Below, one piece after another: positions 18,688 through 31,931 of a stretch of DNA of 64,000 nucleotides. Location of the stretch: NCBI RefSeq assembly GCF_032050975.1, contig NZ_CP116967.1:496001-560000 (forward strand), given 5' to 3'. The notes under the pieces are model-generated. The model was not told the DNA's origin. It did not search any database and saw nothing but the letters and a program-made list of their open reading frames with translations. Source of the DNA: Candidatus Nitrospira allomarina. Lineage in GTDB: Bacteria; Nitrospirota; Nitrospiria; Nitrospirales; UBA8639. Made by a program: the position numbers and the translations under genes. How positions within the stretch are numbered: position 1 is the stretch's first letter; every line of letters starts with the position of its first letter.

Positions 18688-20253
18688 TCAGGGGGATTCG
18701 TAGACTTCATCACGCAAGTTGTTGACCTGAATGTTATGACGTTTGATTTTTTTGATGAGTCCCTGCCGGCTTAAGCCCAACCGTTTGGCCGTTTGGACCT
18801 GATTGAACCGGCAGGCCAACAAGGTCTCCTTGATCATACGCTGCTCCAATTCATCGACGGCTTGATGAAGACTCCGGCCTTTCGAATCTATGGTGCCTCC
18901 GGTCGTTTGAACAGGGCATCGGATGCCTTCTTCGAGCGCATCCTCGTTTATCGTGGTTCCACGGACCATGACCATTAGCCGTTTGATTTCATTCTCTAAT
19001 TGCCGGATATTTCCCGGCCAGGAATATTCCATGAATCGCTGCATGGCCTTGGCGGACAGTTTTTTCCTGGGTCGATCCATCTGCGAGCTGTAGAGGTCCA
19101 GAAAATAATTGACGAGCAGGGGGATATCTGCCGGGATCTCCCGTAAGGCCGGCGTATGCACATGAACGACTTTGAGACGGTAATAGAGATCGTCTCGAAA
19201 CATGCCGGCTTTAATAGCGGCATCTAAATTTTTATTAGTGGCCGCAATGATCCGGATATCGAGGGGAACGGACTCTCGCTTTCCCACCGGCTCGACGGCC
19301 CGCTCCTGCAGCACCCGTAATACTTTGGCCTGGGCGCTTACGCCCAGATCTCCGATTTCATCCAAAAACAGCGTGCCCTTGTTGGCCTGTTCAAATTTGC
19401 CTATTCTGGCCTCCACGTCGGTCGCCGTGCCTTTGCTGATGCCGAATAATTCACTTTCGATCAACGTTTCGGGGAGGGCGGCACAATTGATCGCGACAAA
19501 CGGTTGACGGGCTCGAGGGCTATTGTAATGAATGGCTTTAGCCACCAATTCCTTTCCGGTTCCGTTTTCTCCGGTAATAAGCACATCCACTGAACTATCC
19601 CGGACCTGATCGATGATTCTGATCAGTCGCTGCATGGGCAGGCTGTTTCCCATCAGCTTTTTCGTGGAGTACTGTCCTTCGACCTCTTTCCACAAATGCG
19701 CGTTTTCCTGTTGCAACCGTTCGCGTTCCCGCCGCAATTGTTCCATGACATGGAATTTCTGAAGAGGGATGGCGATGCGATCAACCAACGCCTGAGCCAC
19801 CATTTCATCCTGGGCGGTAAAATCCTTGCCCTTTTTATTCACGGCTTCAAAGACTCCAATGATGTCGCCGGTTCTGTCCCGAACCGGCAACGCCATCAGG
19901 GTCTGCGTTTGCCGCTTGATTTGTGCGTCGATGCCTGAAAAAAATCTTGAGTCCGATTGCACATCTTTGACATTAATCAACTCTCCGGACGCTACACAGG
20001 CGCCCGCAATTCCCAAGCGAGCATCCAGGCGCAGTAGCCGTCCACTTACCGGGAGAGGAAACCACAGCTCACATTCCTTCCGATCCAGAAGAAACACACT
20101 GATTCCCTCCGCCTGCAATAACCGGCGGGATTCTTTTTCAATGAGTTGTAACAAGGTTTGTAATTCCTGCTCCTGGTTGATCTGAAGCAGAAATGTTTCA
20201 GGGAGGTCTATACTCTTGTGAGAGATTTCCTCTTTTCCGGATCGACTCGCCAT
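18688..20253 (-). CDS. GAF-AAA+-Fis regulator of the NtrC class with altered GAFTGA loop
   Basis: About 521 residues: an N-terminal GAF sensor domain (about 25-165), a coiled linker, an AAA+ domain with Walker A GENGTGKE and Walker B GTLFLDEIGD, and a Fis-type HTH at the end (FNQVQTAKRLGLSRQG). There is no receiver domain. The loop that normally reads GAFTGA and contacts sigma-54 reads GTATDV here (bases 19414-19431), so activation through sigma-54 is doubtful. It may bind DNA and use ATP without classical open-complex formation. The start at 20253 is preferred (AGGAA upstream, conserved sequence begins); a TTG at 20310 would add 19 residues. It is the last gene of the minus-strand signalling array. 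Confidence 0.87.
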   Translation of the reverse strand: MASRSGKEEISHKSIDLPETFLLQINQEQELQTLLQLIEKESRRLLQAEGISVFLLDRKECELWFPLPVSGRLLRLDARLGIAGACVASGELINVKDVQSDSRFFSGIDAQIKRQTQTLMALPVRDRTGDIIGVFEAVNKKGKDFTAQDEMVAQALVDRIAIPLQKFHVMEQLRRERERLQQENAHLWKEVEGQYSTKKLMGNSLPMQRLIRIIDQVRDSSVDVLITGENGTGKELVAKAIHYNSPRARQPFVAINCAALPETLIESELFGISKGTATDVEARIGKFEQANKGTLFLDEIGDLGVSAQAKVLRVLQERAVEPVGKRESVPLDIRIIAATNKNLDAAIKAGMFRDDLYYRLKVVHVHTPALREIPADIPLLVNYFLDLYSSQMDRPRKKLSAKAMQRFMEYSWPGNIRQLENEIKRLMVMVRGTTINEDALEEGIRCPVQTTGGTIDSKGRSLHQAVDELEQRMIKETLLACRFNQVQTAKRLGLSRQGLIKKIKRHNIQVNNLRDEVYESP

Positions 20254-20424
20254 GGCGGTGTTCCTGAAAATTCCGTTGAGCCCACACCGCTGGACAGCGG
20301 GAAGCATCAACTGTACACATTATGACCAGGTGTGAATGGAGAAGGCAACTACCCGCCCAGCCTTCCCATTCTCTGTTCACTGAAAGAGACTATCCTCTTA
20401 CCATTCAAAATCCCAGGCCAAGAC

Positions 20425-22395
20425 CTATCCCCTAGCTTGTTCGATGGAAGTCACCGAACATGGTTCCAGACTGCCCGTCTTCGTGAACAACCGGTAAACG
20501 GAAATGCGCTTGGCTTTCCCCCTTAATGTGATCATGCCGACTTCTTTGAGTCTCCATGGATGGTCCCCGAGGTAATGTTTGGTGGTCTCACCAATAAGAA
20601 TCCGGCAGACTTCATCTTTGGGCCAGGTCTCCAACGAGTCTTTTTGGAAACTTTCCAACCGAGAGGCAACATTCACGGAGTCTCCAATGGTTGTAAATTT
20701 CAATCGTTGTTCACTGCCCAGACTTCCGACGACCACCGGCCCCGTTTGAATGCCAATCCGCATCCGCACCTCGGGCAACCCCTGCTGCTGCCATTGAGTA
20801 TTGAGATGTCGCATTTCCTGTTCCAAGGCCACGGCACAACTGACTGCATTGTTGACATCCTGCCGCTTGTCGGCTTCCATTTGCCCCAGCCGGAATACCC
20901 CGAAATCCGCTTTGATCATGTCTCCATGATAATCATCAACCATCCCGCCATGGTTGGTGATGATTTTCACCATGCGCTCCATGTAGGTGTTGAGCCAGTC
21001 CAGTACCGTGTCGGGTTCCATGTTTTCTGCCACAGTCGTGAACCCTTCCAGATCCGTAAACAATGTCGTCACCACCAATTTCTGTGGGCGTAACCGGCCC
21101 TTTTCCAAAAATTGTTCCCGCTTCTCCCAGACAGCCTGAGCCACTTCTGTAGAGACATGCCGGGAAAAAAGAGACATCAGGAGCGCCCGGTCCTGCTTTT
21201 CCTGATTCGAAAGCCAGGCTGTCACCACCATGGCATTAACGACCAATCCAATGACCGGCGGGATAAACGGGATCCACACCCCATACCTCATCCCGGTCAC
21301 CACCACTCCGCTTAGCAGCAGCATCCCCATGAGCATAGCCAGAGAGAAACGCCAGGCACCTCGAACCCACACGCCGATGAATCCTCCCCCGAGCACCCAA
21401 AGCCCGATCCAGGCTGCTTCCAGGGAATCTGGGAATGTCGCAATGGGGGCCTGGCCCTCTCCCTTCGCTAAGCGGAGCAGTTGGTGCACCATATATCCAT
21501 GCAGTTCAAGTCCGGGAATTGGGGGACACACCGTGAGTGTTCCGCATTGGGAGGTATAAAAATAATCTTTAACGCCCTGGGCGATAACCCCGACAAGCAC
21601 GATGTGGTCCTGAAGCAGCTCCGGATTGAACGTTCCGGCCAGTATGTCTCCAAAAGAAATGGTCGGAAAGACGTTCTTCCCCCGTTCAAGATCCAGCAGA
21701 TATTGATACCCCTGGGCATCGGCTTCCAAATACCCCCCATCATACGCTTCGAAAGGGCGAATGACCGTTTTCCCAAGTTGCAACCAATTAGAATTCTCAA
21801 TGGCCGGCTTGGGGACGATCTTCTCCTGCTGTAAATATTGAAGGGCCAGCAGCAAAGAAAATGACCGATAGAAATTGGTCCCATCATCCAGGAATAAGAG
21901 ACCACGGCGAACGATCCCGCCGGAATCAACGACCACATCGTTAAACCCGAGACGATCCGTGCCTTGCAATATGGCCGGACCGGGAATACCCCCCTTCTCA
22001 ATTTTTCCGAATTTCATGACCATCAGAATTTCCGGATGCGCCTCAAGTATCCGGTCCAATTCCTGCCGACCGGGCGGCACTTCCAAGTCCCGGTACATAT
22101 CCACTCCAATCGCTCGAGGGTAATGCGTCGCCATGACGTCCAGGGCCCGGGCAAGGACTGCATCCGTTACCGGCCAATGCCCTAATGTTCGAATATCCTG
22201 ATCCGTAATCGACACCAGCGTGATCGGAGGGTTCGACTGTTTAGTGGTCGGACGAAGACGCATTGACCAATCGTAGGCATCCAGTTCCGCGCTTTCCAGA
22301 AAGCCTTCCCACCGAAGCCCCATAACACCCAGAAAAACCAGGAAAGTTATGACCCCGATTTGAAATGCTGGAGAACGAAGAGGTGAATGGCCCAC
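20425..22395 (-). CDS. CHASE2-sensor class III adenylate/guanylate cyclase 1
   Basis: A 656-residue membrane protein: an N-terminal membrane segment (16-28), an extracytoplasmic CHASE2 domain (about 35-320; ITLVSITDQDIRTLGHWP, then HIVLVGVIAQGVKDYF), about three membrane helices (328-396), then a class III cyclase domain (about 440-640). Catalytic residues are intact: metal-binding Asp448 (FTDLEGFT) and Asp492 (HGDMIKADFG), with Asn575 and Arg579 in GDSVNVASRL. It should make cAMP or cGMP in response to a periplasmic cue. The start is GTG with AGGGGA upstream. It follows the first GAF kinase in the array and is paralogous to the protein at 24210-26570. Confidence 0.92.
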   Translation of the reverse strand: MGHSPLRSPAFQIGVITFLVFLGVMGLRWEGFLESAELDAYDWSMRLRPTTKQSNPPITLVSITDQDIRTLGHWPVTDAVLARALDVMATHYPRAIGVDMYRDLEVPPGRQELDRILEAHPEILMVMKFGKIEKGGIPGPAILQGTDRLGFNDVVVDSGGIVRRGLLFLDDGTNFYRSFSLLLALQYLQQEKIVPKPAIENSNWLQLGKTVIRPFEAYDGGYLEADAQGYQYLLDLERGKNVFPTISFGDILAGTFNPELLQDHIVLVGVIAQGVKDYFYTSQCGTLTVCPPIPGLELHGYMVHQLLRLAKGEGQAPIATFPDSLEAAWIGLWVLGGGFIGVWVRGAWRFSLAMLMGMLLLSGVVVTGMRYGVWIPFIPPVIGLVVNAMVVTAWLSNQEKQDRALLMSLFSRHVSTEVAQAVWEKREQFLEKGRLRPQKLVVTTLFTDLEGFTTVAENMEPDTVLDWLNTYMERMVKIITNHGGMVDDYHGDMIKADFGVFRLGQMEADKRQDVNNAVSCAVALEQEMRHLNTQWQQQGLPEVRMRIGIQTGPVVVGSLGSEQRLKFTTIGDSVNVASRLESFQKDSLETWPKDEVCRILIGETTKHYLGDHPWRLKEVGMITLRGKAKRISVYRLFTKTGSLEPCSVTSIEQARG

Positions 22396-22553
22396 GGAGA
22401 TCCCCTAATACAGCTCAGGCACGATATGAATGAACCAGAAAACGGGAAGATATCTGGTGTGTTTTGTTGGTCACCACAAGCAAGTACATGCTGAGGATGA
22501 TGCAATGAACGGGGAGAACTTTGTTCACGCTTCGTACCCGTTTTTCAAAAGAT

Positions 22554-23918
22554 TTAAGAAGACACGTGATCCGAAGAAAACGTGGTCGCCACTTCCATAG
22601 GCAAATGAATATGAAAAACGGTGCCTCTATTCACTTCACTCTCGACCCCGATGACTCCCGAATGCGCTTCGATGACATCCTTGACAATTTTGGTTCCTAA
22701 CCCGGTTCCACCCTGCTTCCGGCTTATCGCCCTAGTCGTGAATAACGTGTCTCGAATCTCAGCGGGCATGCCACGCCCGGTATCAATCACGGACACATGA
22801 ACCGTCTTTCCCATAGCTTCCATTTTTCCCGTTATCGTGATAGACCCGCCTTTGGGAACTTCGGAAATGGCGTTATTGACAAGGTTATAAAAGGCATTAA
22901 ACAGGCGGGATTCATCGGCTTGCATCACCGGCAAATCCAAAATTCCTTCATGAGCCAGAGAAATCCCTTTTTCTTGAGCGGCCAGTTTCAAGGTATCAAA
23001 CACCGAAGCAATCACATGGTGAAGCTTACAAGGGGCAAAGCGTGGAGGGCTCGTCAATCCCTTCACGCAATCGGCAATTTCTTTCACGCGCTCTTGAATC
23101 CGCTTCGCGTTATTGGCCACCATCCCAATGACTTCCAGGCATAATTCATAGCTCGCCCGGCCTTTGTCAGGATCAAACGCTGGAAGATCGGCGAAGACGT
23201 CATTCATCTCATCCCTCAGGAGTGAGGTCCCACACATGACCGGCATCAGCATATTTTTTACGTCATGCCCAATGTCTCCCAGGATTCGGGCCACTTCCGC
23301 TAATTTGGCTTCCTGAAATAATCGCGCCTGCTCAATGGCCAGTGCCGTGAAGGCCCCGATGATCATTAAGATAGCCACGTCGTCCTGATTTAACCTGTCC
23401 TCCCGCTTGTTCATCACCTCCAGGACGCCTATCGGATGTCCTTCCCATCGGTTCAGGGGAATGGCAATCAAGTCCCTGGTATGGAATCCGCTCAGTTGAT
23501 CGATTTTCTCAAGATGACGCTGATCCTCCTTCACATCTTTTATCACCACAGGTTCTCCTGTGGCGAAAACCGATCCCGCAATCCCTTGCGTCCACGGAAA
23601 TGCCGTTCCGGGCTTGAGTGGCTGGTCACCAATTGAATGGTAAAACACCAATTCCTTCGTTTCCGGATTGGCCAACAACACGGAACCGGCCCGGCAGTTC
23701 ACAACCTCCAAGGCTATCTTTAACCCCTGTTCCACCACATCTTCCACGCTGAGATGCTGAAAAAGCGCCTGGCTAATTCTCCGGGCCGCTTCCAGTTCCC
23801 GCTCTTTGCGATCCAATTGGTTCGAGGGATTCACATCCGGCTCCGGAATGATTTCAAGGTTGACCCGATTTTCACCATAGCCGTTCACATTTGGAGGGTT
23901 ATTGGAAAAGGGTAGCAA
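22554..23918 (-). CDS. GAF-domain sensor histidine kinase 1
   Basis: A roughly 454-residue soluble protein with a GAF domain (about 55-200), a phospho-acceptor helix with His218 in GDIGHDVKNML, and a HATPase domain with an N box (FYNLVNNAISEVP), a G1 box (DTGRGMP) and a G2 box (GGTGLGTKIVKDV). No membrane segment is seen, so it should sense a cytoplasmic signal or bind a partner. No receiver-domain protein is encoded nearby, leaving its phosphotransfer partner unknown. It is clearly paralogous to the kinase at 26754-28097. The N-terminus is uncertain: the first codon given is TTG without a good Shine-Dalgarno. Confidence 0.88.
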   Translation of the reverse strand: MLPFSNNPPNVNGYGENRVNLEIIPEPDVNPSNQLDRKERELEAARRISQALFQHLSVEDVVEQGLKIALEVVNCRAGSVLLANPETKELVFYHSIGDQPLKPGTAFPWTQGIAGSVFATGEPVVIKDVKEDQRHLEKIDQLSGFHTRDLIAIPLNRWEGHPIGVLEVMNKREDRLNQDDVAILMIIGAFTALAIEQARLFQEAKLAEVARILGDIGHDVKNMLMPVMCGTSLLRDEMNDVFADLPAFDPDKGRASYELCLEVIGMVANNAKRIQERVKEIADCVKGLTSPPRFAPCKLHHVIASVFDTLKLAAQEKGISLAHEGILDLPVMQADESRLFNAFYNLVNNAISEVPKGGSITITGKMEAMGKTVHVSVIDTGRGMPAEIRDTLFTTRAISRKQGGTGLGTKIVKDVIEAHSGVIGVESEVNRGTVFHIHLPMEVATTFSSDHVSS

Positions 23919-24209: not shown

Positions 24210-26570
24210 TTAGATGCCATGCTTATCAAATGAATTTCTGGACCCAGGCCAACGATTCGATCCGGAAGAGTCATGAACATTGGCTTGAAGCACATCCGAG
24301 AATAGGTCAGGGTCATAGTTTTCTATGGTCACCACTTTATCCCAAGGTTCAGGAGGTGGATTTTTGCTGTACTGCTCACAGAGCTGAAGATAAAATTCCG
24401 AAGGTCCATCTCCCTCGATATGGTTAAGACACTGAGAAAACAAATCTCGTGCAACATTCCAATCCTGCGTTCTAAATGCCCCGAGACCTTTGGCAAAGAT
24501 CCGACTCACTATCATTTGGTTTTGATCAGCCTCCTCCAGGCGACTGATGAGTTCGTGGAGGACAAACGGAGGCTCATGGCCTTTCAGCTTAAACTGTCCA
24601 AGCTCTCTAAAGAGAAAGGGTGCTTCAAGGCCATGGACGACATCACCCGTCACGGCAATTGTCGTTCCCATATATTTATTGCACCCTTTCACCCGGCAAG
24701 CCATATTCACGATCTCTCCGGCCGGGCGGTACTCAGCATAATCGACCGCCCTCTCCATGCCGATGGTAAACTGCCCGCTATGCAATCCGATCCTTGTGGG
24801 AAGACTGTATGGCCGTACCTCTTGGTTAAACCGATCAATCGATTTCGCAATATCCAAGGCTGCGAAGCACGCTTGCTTTCTCAGGCCCAGCTGATCCTGA
24901 TTCGCTTTCCAGATCGCAAGAGTCGAATTTCCCCTCAAATCGACAATGAGCCCACCATGGTGGCGAACAGGCGTAAAGAGCGCGTTAAAGTATTTCCCGA
25001 GTAGCACGCGCAATTCCTGAGGATTCACTTTTTCCGATAGGGTCGTATAATTCGCGGCCTCGGTAAACAAACAGGTTCCATAGACGACCCGAGGACCCCC
25101 CTTGAGATCGGCAAGGTCGTGAGATAGCGCATCCACCACATCATTGGGCAGGTGGTCCCCAAAAACCTTGCGCATATTCTTCCGCTCCTTATCAATCTGG
25201 TAAGAGTTCCACGAAACAGCACTCCCGAAGGCCAATGGCCCCTGCACCAACAACGGAATTACGAGGGGAGACCACGTAAAGGCGTCCTGAAATGCATAGG
25301 CAGCCCCCACGAGATATAAGAGACTCAAGCCAAGGACTGCGCCGGCTGCCATTACCGTTGAAAGCATCCGGCAAACAACCCCCACAAGCAGGCCCCACGA
25401 CAGGAGAAACAACACTTTGGCACGCAAGCTCATAGGTGTAACAGAAGAGTCCTCCAGCATGTTGGCAAAAACTGTGGCGGATATTTCCACGCCGCCAATA
25501 TAAACCCCATTTCCCTGAAAAAACATCGGGTAAAAACGATCCTTCCTTACCCCTGGCAAAATATCGGTACGTCCCACAAAGACGACTTTGCCTTTCAGAT
25601 CCGTTCGGGCGTCTCGGGTAGCGTCGGGCCGGGAATCCAGAACCTGATAATACGGAATGGTCGTAATGGTCCGTGAAGGTCCATAGAAATTGAGATAACG
25701 GCTTTGCGCGCTCCCGTAAACCTTGATCAGCGCCCTGAGCTGCTTGAAGTTCTTCGCTTTGGTTGGGCGGGGTCCCACATAGCTGAGGGCCCTGAGCATG
25801 TCTTCCGTTAGACGCGGATCGCTCTGAAAGAGTTTCCTGATATCCCGCACCAACTCCACCAGCCCTTTGCTTCTTCGTGCCGACTCAAAATCCTTGGGAA
25901 GTTGGCCGGTTACATTGGGGCGGACCTGCTCAAGGAGTTCAATAAACGGTTGATAGACGGGTGAAAAAAACAATTGGAGTGCCAGAATGGGAAAGATTGG
26001 GGCTTCGCCCGCTCCTTGTTGAAACATCCAATCCTGGTACACCTTAGCCGGCATACTTGAAAGCACAAACGGGCCGGTTCCGGCGGCCGCTTTCTTAAAG
26101 GCTGAAAATGGTTTGGAGATTTCCACGATGGTATCGGCATCATCCCGCGCCTCTACTATCATACCCGCGGGGACGTCCCCCGCGATCAGCGTTTCCGCCA
26201 ACACGACATTCCCGGCTCGTTGAATAGCTTTTTCAAAATATCCATCCTCCTCCGGCGATCGGGCTTCTAGAAAATTCACGTCGAAGATTATGACCCTCGC
26301 TCCGGCTTGCGCCAGCCGCTCCGTTAGCCGTGCATACAGAGAGCGAGGCCATTCATCGGGATTGTTTGGGACGTTGAAGTACGCTGAAGAATCATGATCA
26401 ATACGAATGACCACAACGTCAGTCGGTGGCGACCTGACACCCCGCAATTGGAACAAAAGGCCTAATCCAACATCTTCTTCTATACTGCGAGAAAGCGGGA
26501 CAACACTGAGGACAACTCCAACGATACCAATGAGCAGACCAAACAAACCGGCCTTTATGAGTTTGGCCAC
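24210..26570 (-). CDS. CHASE2-cyclase 2, probably catalytically impaired
   Basis: A 786-residue paralogue of the 20425-22395 protein: membrane segment (8-26), CHASE2 (about 35-365), several membrane helices (384-445), and a class III cyclase-like domain (about 490-680) with a further 100-residue tail. The two metal-binding aspartates are replaced: Glu504 (LFTEAANYT) and Asn548 (LRGNSTLAIW). Asn622 and Arg626 (VNMACR) remain. Two-metal catalysis should therefore be weak or lost, and it may instead be a sensor, a decoy or a partner subunit. The start is GTG with AAGAGG upstream. Confidence 0.88.
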   Translation of the reverse strand: MAKLIKAGLFGLLIGIVGVVLSVVPLSRSIEEDVGLGLLFQLRGVRSPPTDVVVIRIDHDSSAYFNVPNNPDEWPRSLYARLTERLAQAGARVIIFDVNFLEARSPEEDGYFEKAIQRAGNVVLAETLIAGDVPAGMIVEARDDADTIVEISKPFSAFKKAAAGTGPFVLSSMPAKVYQDWMFQQGAGEAPIFPILALQLFFSPVYQPFIELLEQVRPNVTGQLPKDFESARRSKGLVELVRDIRKLFQSDPRLTEDMLRALSYVGPRPTKAKNFKQLRALIKVYGSAQSRYLNFYGPSRTITTIPYYQVLDSRPDATRDARTDLKGKVVFVGRTDILPGVRKDRFYPMFFQGNGVYIGGVEISATVFANMLEDSSVTPMSLRAKVLFLLSWGLLVGVVCRMLSTVMAAGAVLGLSLLYLVGAAYAFQDAFTWSPLVIPLLVQGPLAFGSAVSWNSYQIDKERKNMRKVFGDHLPNDVVDALSHDLADLKGGPRVVYGTCLFTEAANYTTLSEKVNPQELRVLLGKYFNALFTPVRHHGGLIVDLRGNSTLAIWKANQDQLGLRKQACFAALDIAKSIDRFNQEVRPYSLPTRIGLHSGQFTIGMERAVDYAEYRPAGEIVNMACRVKGCNKYMGTTIAVTGDVVHGLEAPFLFRELGQFKLKGHEPPFVLHELISRLEEADQNQMIVSRIFAKGLGAFRTQDWNVARDLFSQCLNHIEGDGPSEFYLQLCEQYSKNPPPEPWDKVVTIENYDPDLFSDVLQANVHDSSGSNRWPGSRNSFDKHGI

Positions 26571-29674: not shown

Positions 29675-29690
29675 TGTGATTTTGATCACG
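29675..29690. promoter_or_regulatory. CRP-like site
   Basis: TGTGATTTTGATCACG matches the E. coli CRP consensus TGTGA-N6-TCACA with one mismatch. It lies about 350 bases upstream of the 65-residue protein gene. A CRP-family regulator is encoded 1.6 kb away. Confidence 0.5.
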
Positions 29691-29837: not shown

Positions 29838-29874
29838 GTATCCATTTGGATACATATTTTATCTATTTAGATAC
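29838..29874. promoter_or_regulatory. Tandem palindromes GTATC-N6-GATAC, 21-bp spacing (locus 3)
   Basis: GTATCCATTTGGATAC at 29838-29853 and TTATCTATTTAGATAC at 29859-29874 reproduce the layout of 16197-16233: the first box starts with G, the second with T, and the starts are 21 bases apart. The N6 centres differ (CATTTG, TATTTA), so the arms and spacing are what is conserved. The nearest downstream gene on the minus strand is the 65-residue protein. Confidence 0.65.
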
Positions 29875-30185
29875 ATGTCTTGGTTGACGACTCCCTGTAT
29901 TTGAATGTCCCAAGGTCGATCATTGAAGGTCTATGTCTTGTTTTTTAGTCCGAATGCTCCATGGTTCGTCTCAAATTTTTCAGGACAGGACTGATGGATT
30001 GAGATTCTTTTTCTGAGAGAGAAAATGAAAAATCCAAAAAATCCAAGGCGGATATTGGAATTGTCGGAGGGGTTGTTGGTTTGAATAAAAAAGGACTACA
30101 CCACGCCAAGGCGATAGTCTGAAAGGCCGGTGACGCTTGGGGAATGAAGGTGAGGAATAGAAGAGTTAAAAGAAAAAGGTCATTG

Positions 30186-30977
30186 CTAGAATTTCACTTC
30201 CTGGCCTTCTTTCAATATCGTGACGTGAGGGATGTCCAGACGGCTTATTTCATCAATGATTTGGTCTCGTACGGTAGGCTTCATATGGTAGACGTATAAG
30301 GGCAGATCAGGTTTCCCGATTTTTCGATATTCGTGGGCTAAAAGAGTTGGCGTGAGATGTTTACTTCGAGAGGCCATATCTTTCATTGAATCGGGAAAGG
30401 ATACCTCAATAAAGACGCCTTTTAAATTTGGTATTCGGGCCGCCTCTTGCCAAAGGTTTTCCGTTACATAGGTATCTCCACTATAAATCCAGGCCACCTC
30501 GTCATCCTGAATAATAAACCCTGCCGTTTCGACGGTATGGTTAACGGGAATGGGGGTTACTCTAATTTTTCCAGGCAAGCGCCATTCCCGTTTGGGCTTT
30601 AACTCCTCTCCACGTAACATGGAATAGTGAGATTTTGGAAGATGGAAGAAATTCGGAAATACTAAATCGTTAAAGACATGCTTCTGCAGTCCAACTAAAA
30701 CCGATGGTAAACTTGCCACCACGATTTGATGATCCACCCGCCCCGACATATTATCGACAAGCGGGGGAATGCCTTTGACGTGATCTAAATGCAAGTGGGA
30801 AAGGAGAATATGTGTGATCCGCTTTTGCTCCTTCAAAGTGAGTCCTGAAGCTAATGTTCCAGCGTCTACCATCAGCTCTTCATTGACTAAGAATCCCACG
30901 CTCCGACAAATATGCCGACTGGTCGGTCCATTCAAGAGTAGATCTGACCCATGGGCTCCCAATACCCGAATGTTCAC
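30186..30977 (-). CDS. Metallo-beta-lactamase-fold class II cyclic-nucleotide phosphodiesterase
   Basis: About 263 residues with the MBL-fold zinc motif HLHLDH (residues 61-66), a later His in PVNHTVET, Asp in YSGDTY and His in YHMKP, giving a full two-metal site. The N-terminal FLVNEELMVDAGTLASGL and the overall layout match the class II (PDE1-like) cyclic-nucleotide phosphodiesterases rather than RNase Z or lactamases. It should hydrolyse cAMP or cGMP. The start is GTG at 30977, chosen because AAGGGA lies six bases upstream and the fold begins at once (MNIRVLG). A TTG at 31001 is the alternative. It sits between the cyclase array and a CRP-type gene, with CRP-like boxes upstream. Confidence 0.8.
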   Translation of the reverse strand: MNIRVLGAHGSDLLLNGPTSRHICRSVGFLVNEELMVDAGTLASGLTLKEQKRITHILLSHLHLDHVKGIPPLVDNMSGRVDHQIVVASLPSVLVGLQKHVFNDLVFPNFFHLPKSHYSMLRGEELKPKREWRLPGKIRVTPIPVNHTVETAGFIIQDDEVAWIYSGDTYVTENLWQEAARIPNLKGVFIEVSFPDSMKDMASRSKHLTPTLLAHEYRKIGKPDLPLYVYHMKPTVRDQIIDEISRLDIPHVTILKEGQEVKF

Positions 30978-31162
30978 AAAAAATCCCTTGAATGACAGCA
31001 ATGATCCATACCCTTGCCTTCCTGTTGTGCCATATTCAAAAAATGCAGGGATGAGCGACCAATTTCAAGTCATGGAATCCTAGGGGTACCCACCTCTCTG
31101 ATGGAAAGACAATCCGAGGATCTGTTCTTGTTTTTAATTTATCCCATTCCAGGCCTCCTGTC

Positions 31163-31201
31163 TGTGATATTCATCACATTCTTGGTGTGATTCTCTTCGC
31201 A
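31163..31201. promoter_or_regulatory. Two CRP-like sites upstream of the phosphodiesterase gene
   Basis: TGTGATATTCATCACA at 31163-31178 is a perfect TGTGA-N6-TCACA. A second box at 31186-31201 (TGTGATTCTCTTCGCA) has one mismatch. Starts are 23 bases apart. They lie about 185 bases upstream of the phosphodiesterase start and just after the CRP-family gene. Confidence 0.65.
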
Positions 31202-31262: not shown

Positions 31263-31931
31263 TTATTCCCATAATCTATTGATATAAATCGTCTTCCGGG
31301 TAACTGAAAGACTTCCGTTTTCTTTGAGAGCCTTAAGGGTCCGACTCAAGGTTTCCCTGGAGCATCCTACCATGTTGGCTAATTCCTGGAAGGATGGACG
31401 ATTGGAAATCAATAATTGTCCATGAGTCTCCACCCCATCCTGGAACTTTGCTAAATCAAGAAGACAGCGACCCACACGCCCATACATATCAAACATCACG
31501 AGACTGCGAACTTGTTCGCTGACTTTTCGCAATCGTTGGGAAAGGTTTTTGAGAATTTTTATAGCAATGTCTGGATGGTGCTTTAAAAGTTCCGTCAATG
31601 CCTTCCGTCCCAATAAAAAACATTCACTCGGCTCCACCGTTACCACTGATGCAGATCGAGGAGCTGATTCCAGGATGGCCATCTCACCGAAAAAGTTCCC
31701 CGGACCCAAGTGCGAGAGGATAAATTCCTGTCCGTTTTTCCCGGTTAACAGCACCTTAACTTTGCCTGACAAAATAATGAATAACACTTCGCCTGAATCG
31801 CCTTCCTGGAATATGACATTTTTGTCGGAGAACTTTTGGCGACTCCCGGAAGCGGCCAACAGATTGAGTTCCTGATCCGTTAATTCGGAAAAGAGTGGGA
31901 CATTTTTAATCGCTTGTTTGTACATCACCAT
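31263..31931 (-). CDS. CRP/FNR-family transcriptional regulator
   Basis: A 222-residue protein: a cyclic-nucleotide-binding domain (about 10-125) and a C-terminal winged HTH (FQELANMVGCSRETLSRTLK, about 176-195). The phosphate-binding cassette FGEMAILESAPRSAS keeps Glu83, Arg92 and Ser93, the residues that hold the cyclic nucleotide in CRP, so ligand binding is plausible. There is no N-terminal cysteine cluster of the FNR type. It likely reads the nucleotide made by the nearby cyclases. Possible targets are the CRP-like boxes at 31163, 31186 and 29675. Alternative start: ATG two codons on. Confidence 0.9.
   Translation of the reverse strand: MVMYKQAIKNVPLFSELTDQELNLLAASGSRQKFSDKNVIFQEGDSGEVLFIILSGKVKVLLTGKNGQEFILSHLGPGNFFGEMAILESAPRSASVVTVEPSECFLLGRKALTELLKHHPDIAIKILKNLSQRLRKVSEQVRSLVMFDMYGRVGRCLLDLAKFQDGVETHGQLLISNRPSFQELANMVGCSRETLSRTLKALKENGSLSVTRKTIYINRLWE

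Follow-up and report, generated by a model that had tools for sequence, protein, structure and literature searches.

Two CRP boxes lying between a CRP-type regulator gene and a phosphodiesterase-like (PDE) gene are, in our judgement, probably operators through which CRP activates a class II promoter of the PDE gene and thereby closes a negative-feedback loop on a cyclic nucleotide. The boxes lie in the window, by which we mean the whole 64-kb stretch of DNA that was analysed. This reading is based on the sites themselves, their conservation and spacing, their co-occurrence with the CRP orthologue, and the recognition residues of the regulator.

Sequence, position, and rarity of the boxes

The core of the locus consists of four features.

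31263..31931, minus strand: CRP-type regulator, 222 aa (PF00027, PF13545, and PF00325 above cut-off)
31186..31201, minus strand: distal CRP box, TGCGAAGAGAATCACA in the minus-strand reading; predicted centre at -64.5; 1 mismatch
31163..31178, minus strand: proximal CRP box, TGTGATGAATATCACA in the minus-strand reading; predicted centre at -41.5; perfect consensus
30186..30977, minus strand: MBL-fold cyclic-nucleotide phosphodiesterase-like gene (PF02112), class II-like; GTG start at 30977

In the plus-strand reading, positions 31163 to 31178 are TGTGATATTCATCACA, with 0 mismatches to TGTGA-N6-TCACA, and positions 31186 to 31201 are TGTGATTCTCTTCGCA, with 1 mismatch, which agrees with the one perfect and one near-perfect box of the initial annotation. 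The 23 bases that it gave as the distance between them hold as the start-to-start figure (which equals the centre-to-centre figure), the gap itself being 7 nt from box end to box end. The boxes do lie between the two genes, as had been noted, and since both genes are on the minus strand, they follow the CRP gene and precede the PDE gene in the direction of transcription; they are the only sites with ≤1 mismatch in the CRP-PDE gap of the window. Single sites mean little on their own, given that the whole window contains 3 sites with ≤1 mismatch versus 1.86 expected from shuffles; for ≤2 mismatches, the count was 23 versus 27 expected. A perfect site together with a ≤1-mismatch site within 40 bp is expected about 1.4e-4 times per 64 kb (first-order Markov estimate), so the earlier remark that such a pair within 40 bases is unlikely by chance was correct. 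Compared with its nearest relatives, the window genome alone has the distal-box mismatch (TGCGA); the sequence in G004, G010, G017, and G016 is TGTGA-N6-TCACA at that position.

The CRP-type regulator

The regulator has an N-terminal cyclic-nucleotide-binding domain (PF00027, 89.6 bits) and a C-terminal Crp-type helix-turn-helix (PF13545, 45.8 bits; PF00325, 34.1 bits), all above cut-off. Its score against the NCBIfam equivalog CRP (PRK11753) was 144.5 bits, below the cut-off of 266, and we therefore refer to it as a CRP-type protein and do not file it as that equivalog. In Escherichia coli CRP, residues R180, E181, and R185 read TGTGA. These residues were found in 15/15 orthologues compared, and they occurred together in 0/5 other HTH_Crp_2 paralogues (two from the window genome and three from G014). 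All four phosphate-pocket residues (G71, E72, R82, and S83) were present in 14 of the 15 orthologues, G017 having R in place of G71. The positions that contact the adenine of cAMP, T127/S128, are V and S in the window protein and are variable among the orthologues; the ligand may consequently be cAMP or cGMP, and this variation counts against the main reading. Autoregulation of the CRP gene was also considered and is not supported by canonical boxes: within 350 nt upstream of CRP, a ≤1-mismatch box was present in 0/16 genomes and a 2-mismatch box in 4/16.

The phosphodiesterase-like enzyme

The PDE protein scored 47.1 bits against PF02112, above the cut-off of 23.7. The N-terminus MNIRVLG is common to 8/8 aligned proteins, and the HxHLDH metal motif (H61-L-H63-L-D65-H66) is invariant in the same number of PDE proteins. 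From its sequence, the enzyme is likely to be a cyclic-nucleotide phosphodiesterase. It is also conceivable, although we consider it rather unlikely, that CRP controls the gene but that the substrate of this MBL-fold hydrolase is not the CRP ligand, in which case there would be regulation without a feedback loop. The protein scores higher against PF12706 (54.3 bits) than against PF02112, which also counts against the main reading; its best NCBIfam matches are RNase Z models, far under cut-off, and the NCBIfam cyclic-nucleotide phosphodiesterase model NF041851 gave 34.1 of 400. A structure model built from 8 close sequences matched many MBL enzymes (Apyc1, RNase Z, and YhfI), and because its confidence is low (pLDDT 62.9), these matches indicate an MBL fold only. 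Against this alternative, the PF02112 cut-off was passed, and the best PDB sequence match was 4ojv, a 3',5'-cyclic-nucleotide phosphodiesterase 1, with which the protein has the stretch LQKHVFNDL in common. Furthermore, the PDE gene shows linkage to CRP, and in G008 and G011 a PF00211 cyclase gene is linked to PDE as well.

Conservation of the boxes and a predicted class II promoter

A lack of conservation of the boxes in close relatives had been set beforehand as the refuting result, and the boxes are conserved. The comparison of CRP-PDE gaps covered 14 genomes or loci, one being the window itself and two having a decayed CRP gene; the closest named relatives are Nitrospira/Nitrospirales MAGs. 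The PDE-proximal box was kept (≤2 mismatches) in 14/14 gaps, with 0 mismatches in six, 1 in six, and 2 in two. The distal box (≤2 mismatches) was present at exactly the 23-nt offset in 10/14 gaps and absent in G018, G005, G011, and G008, which makes the proximal box the core. In G019 and G001, the outer bases have changed on both sides at once (AGTGA-N6-TCACT), so that the dyad is kept. Across the diverged G019, G001, G005, G011, and G008, the proximal box core is the same as in the window at 8-9 of 10 positions, whereas the remainder of the gap has only 37-46 percent identity to the window sequence. Among the five nearest relatives, the box cores match the window at 94/100 cells versus 1025/1239 for the remaining gap (Fisher p 0.002, with rows that are not independent); taken singly, relatives gave nonsignificant values (p 0.49 for G004, 0.05 for G016, and 0.18 for G012). 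In G018, inspected by eye, a long insertion lies between the end of CRP and PDE; the copy next to CRP has been lost, while box and -10 persist on the PDE side, which argues that the site belongs to PDE.

The promoter elements proposed for the PDE gene are as follows.

31159..31164, minus strand: -35-like hexamer CAGACA, 4/6 to TTGACA; overlaps the proximal-box edge; placed by class II geometry
31136..31141, minus strand: -10-like hexamer TAAATT, 21 nt past the proximal box

In the standard geometry of class II CRP promoters, such as those of the galP1 type in E. coli, the box is centred at -41.5 and overlaps the -35 region. The same -41.5 geometry was measured here, and the present locus adds a second box at -64.5. 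A TANNNT sequence follows the proximal box at 21 nt in 11/14 gaps and at 22 nt in 2/14 (offsets 20-23 were scanned and the best one is given; the chance of TANNNT at the two offsets is about 3 percent per sequence); it is missing at 21-22 nt from 1/14, that of NPIRA06, the CRP gene of which is decayed. The class II spacing, with a -10 about 21-22 nt past the box and pointing to PDE, was thus found in 13/14 gaps. The TTGACA-like hexamer at the box edge has 2-5 of 6 matches across the 14 gaps, and a standard sigma-70 scan did not call the PDE promoter, because the -35 is weak. Transcription of PDE is predicted to start near 31129, with a leader of about 150 nt.

From these observations we infer binding, the ligand, activation rather than repression, the activity of the enzyme, and a role for the distal box. 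We envisage that a rise in the cyclic nucleotide, which is most likely cAMP, would lead the CRP-type protein to bind the proximal box at -41.5, over the -35 region, and recruit RNA polymerase to the -10 at 31136-31141, and that a second CRP dimer at -64.5 would raise or sharpen the response. More PDE would then be made, the cyclic nucleotide would fall, and CRP would let go, which amounts to negative feedback; the circuit would most likely serve the cell as a simple thermostat. The sign of the regulation, and hence the negative character of the feedback, is read from the geometry only. The opposite sign, whereby CRP represses PDE because its box over the -35 blocks polymerase, would produce positive feedback and a switch, not a thermostat. 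We consider this improbable. Overlap of the proximal box with the -35-like hexamer would suit repression, as would a second dimer at -64.5, since it would occupy the place at which the alpha C-terminal domain of polymerase binds at class II promoters; however, the -35 hexamers are mostly weak, as they are in activator-dependent promoters, and the 21-22 nt spacing to the -10 is kept, which repression does not need.

Co-occurrence of the boxes with the CRP orthologue

Across 48 family genomes, PDE was found in 25 and a CRP match in 17, including the decayed gene of G014. Where the CRP orthologue was present, 15/16 genomes had a box with ≤2 mismatches in the 450 nt preceding their best PDE copy; where it was absent, the figure was 2/7, close to the 0.19 per 450 nt expected by chance. 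At the stricter threshold of ≤1 mismatch, a box was present in 12/16 genomes with CRP versus 1/7 without it, chance being 0.013 per 450 nt. The association between box and CRP presence (Fisher p 0.003 at ≤2 mismatches and 0.019 at ≤1) is only indicative, because the genomes are related and not independent. G014 and G003, which have broken CRP genes, were counted in neither column, and G012 was counted as CRP bearing despite an apparent frameshift (tblastn pieces in two frames; contig coverage, 1.08). Second PDE copies (G011b, G008b, and G006b) were left out of the count, and 0/3 of them have a box.

In four genomes the PDE and CRP genes are unlinked, and PDE still has a box in 3/4 of them: G021 (0 mismatches), G026 (2), and G031 (1). 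Together with the class II spacing and the recognition residues shared by all the orthologues compared, these boxes support the control of PDE by CRP that the initial annotation had suggested. In the fourth genome, G025, the CRP orthologue is present and there is no ≤2-mismatch box within 450 nt of the unlinked PDE gene. The one near-perfect box in a genome in which no CRP was found is that of G034, which is only 64 percent complete. By eye, no class II -10 was found at 21-22 nt from the boxes of G021, G026, G031, and G034. The absence of a box in G025 and these four boxes without a class II -10 count against the main reading, as does G019, which has CRP and boxes and yet no PF00211 cyclase was found in it (genome 93 percent complete).

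Cyclase presence was also considered as the factor that the boxes track, and it was rejected on account of G019 and of four genomes with cyclases but without the CRP orthologue (G006, G020, G024, and G030), in which there was no box other than one with 2 mismatches at -395 in G020.

Both boxes are kept despite a decayed CRP gene in G014 (1 and 1 mismatch) and in NPIRA06/L045 (0 and 1); G003 is presumed to be identical with L045, since the two give identical match scores and share their boxes. These genomes count against CRP control of PDE. The decayed genes of G014 and G003 carry different lesions, and recent loss of CRP is the simplest reading. Persistence of the boxes beside decayed CRP genes could instead mean that they are used by another CRP/FNR family protein of the genome, and two further HTH_Crp_2 proteins score above cut-off in the window genome. 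We hold this to be very unlikely, because the recognition helices of both paralogues read TTRSRVS, without E181/R185, and because genomes such as G006, G007, and G009, which lack this CRP and have other HTH_Crp_2 proteins, have no boxes. With genomes in which the CRP gene is present, absent, or broken, the family offers a natural test of operator decay after regulator loss. At loci L035, L045, and L074, a CRP pseudogene (G014 and G003) lies beside an intact PDE gene that is 87-95 percent identical to that of the window.

The boxes lie directly past the CRP stop codon, and TGTGAT-ATCACA is able to pair in RNA, so the palindromes might form RNA hairpins, for example, a terminator of the CRP gene. 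There is very little to recommend this explanation, since the fold energy is unexceptional (z -1.6, 13/200 shuffles as good), a terminator scan calls nothing at the boxes, and boxes are found at unlinked PDE genes and, in G018, between the insertion and PDE.

Search for further CRP targets

The genome contains 112 sites with ≤1 mismatch versus 132 expected from window dinucleotides, and 2 perfect sites versus 4.2 expected. A reversed-pattern control gave only 50 sites; the two controls therefore disagree. This lack of enrichment of single sites is what chance similarity without function would predict, an explanation that we regard as scarcely credible, being contradicted by the pair statistics and by conservation of the boxes in diverged relatives. 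Of the 112 sites, 74 were classified (the distal-box locus L012 was left out of 75), and 17/74 fall in no ORF of ≥130 codons (versus a background of 14 percent; p 0.045). Among these 74 of the 112, TANNNT at 21-22 nt was seen only at the PDE site. The class II pattern (≤1 mismatch) matched the whole genome 10 times, twice without mismatch, and of the two mismatch-free matches only the PDE site is outside a long ORF. This search, which degenerate sites would escape, found no second canonical class II CRP promoter in the genome.

The scarcity of other canonical class II targets is a hint that this CRP may act locally. It is possible, though we would not favour it, that the protein is a near-dedicated homeostat, the main conserved canonical target of which is the adjoining PDE gene, and that the tandem boxes at -41.5 and -64.5 give it a sharp threshold; this suggestion comes from the lack of an excess of canonical boxes over Markov expectation and from the one mismatch-free class II site outside long ORFs. 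Such a protein would be unlike the global CRPs of model bacteria and, if it is indeed nearly dedicated to its own PDE, would serve as a simple model of the way in which global CRP regulons originate.

Comparison with known systems

A feedback loop of this kind is already known from the Vfr-cpdA logic of other bacteria. In Pseudomonas aeruginosa, the CRP family protein Vfr positively regulates the cAMP phosphodiesterase gene cpdA at raised cAMP, according to the introduction of PMC3535393, which cites Fuchs et al. (2010). The present locus would be similar in that a CRP-family protein is proposed to activate a cyclic-nucleotide phosphodiesterase gene. P. aeruginosa CpdA is a class III (calcineurin-type) enzyme, whereas the PDE described here is class II-like. 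The linkage of the CRP and PDE genes and the tandem boxes at 23 bp belong to the locus described here.

Corynebacterium glutamicum has the CRP-family regulator GlxR and a class II cAMP phosphodiesterase, CpdA, deletion of which raises cAMP, as given in passages of PMC7026483. The likeness lies in the pairing of a CRP-family regulator with a class II phosphodiesterase. Schulte et al. reportedly described in 2017 that GlxR activates cpdA, giving negative feedback. Unlike GlxR, which is a global regulator, the CRP-type protein has no large set of canonical sites that we found in the present genome. Two features are less usual: the linkage of the CRP gene to its proposed target and the lack of any further canonical class II target in our search.

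Our literature search on tandem CRP sites at this 23-nt spacing returned nothing that was used. A search on Nitrospira and "cAMP receptor protein" found little, and the passages of PMC8510549 that came up do not contain this circuit. The locus offers a concrete, conserved candidate circuit for cyclic-nucleotide control in a Nitrospira-like lineage.

Neighbouring genes and the PDE-FecR gap

Along the minus strand, the CRP gene, the boxes, and PDE are followed, after a gap of 1.3 kb, by genes for a FecR-domain protein, a GAF histidine kinase, and a CHASE2 cyclase-like protein; farther on, genes named by eye encode another GAF histidine kinase, a CHASE2 cyclase, and a regulator resembling NtrC. 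The window genome has 4 PF00211 matches, 3 of them inside the window.

29675..29690, minus strand: weak candidate; CGTGATCAAAATCACA, a third box-like sequence with 1 mismatch, lying upstream of the FecR gene by about 770 nt
24210..26570, minus strand: gene for a CHASE2 class III cyclase-like protein, with E and N in place of the two metal aspartates (FTEAANYT, RGNS)
20425..22395, minus strand: CHASE2 class III cyclase (PF00211); both metal-binding aspartates present (motif alignment)

On its sequence, the cyclase at 20425-22395 is the likely source of the cyclic nucleotide, and the cyclase-like protein at 24210-26570 is probably inactive in the window genome. The relative of the latter in G010 keeps the first aspartate and has H for the second, and that in G014 appears to keep both; these differences among the window, G010, and G014 suggest that the active site is being lost within the genus. 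At 18688-23918 (minus strand), genes for a GAF histidine kinase, a CHASE2 cyclase, and a sigma-54-activator-like protein form another set beside the first (by eye), which suggests a duplicated sensor-cyclase cluster.

The site at 29675-29690 varies in how well it is kept across 6 aligned sequences, though always within 2 mismatches, and no -10 was found at the class II distance; control of the FecR, kinase, and cyclase genes through this site is therefore not claimed. Elsewhere in the PDE-FecR gap, a conserved stretch from about 29325 down to 29130 (minus strand) reads as a small protein with the start MQQETVIFNRQIIRLFKGILKAWEQW in the window; by eye, 2/6 aligned sequences have TGA for a tryptophan codon, so this may be a decaying gene. 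At 29839-29875 (minus strand), two adjacent palindromes, TGTATCTAAATAGATA and TGTATCCAAATGGATA, lie 21 nt apart start to start and are conserved across the 6 aligned sequences; from their sequence, they look like an operator of some regulator. The motif TGTATCYAAATRGATA occurs 10 times in the genome (≤1 mismatch, both strands) versus 0 for the reversed control.
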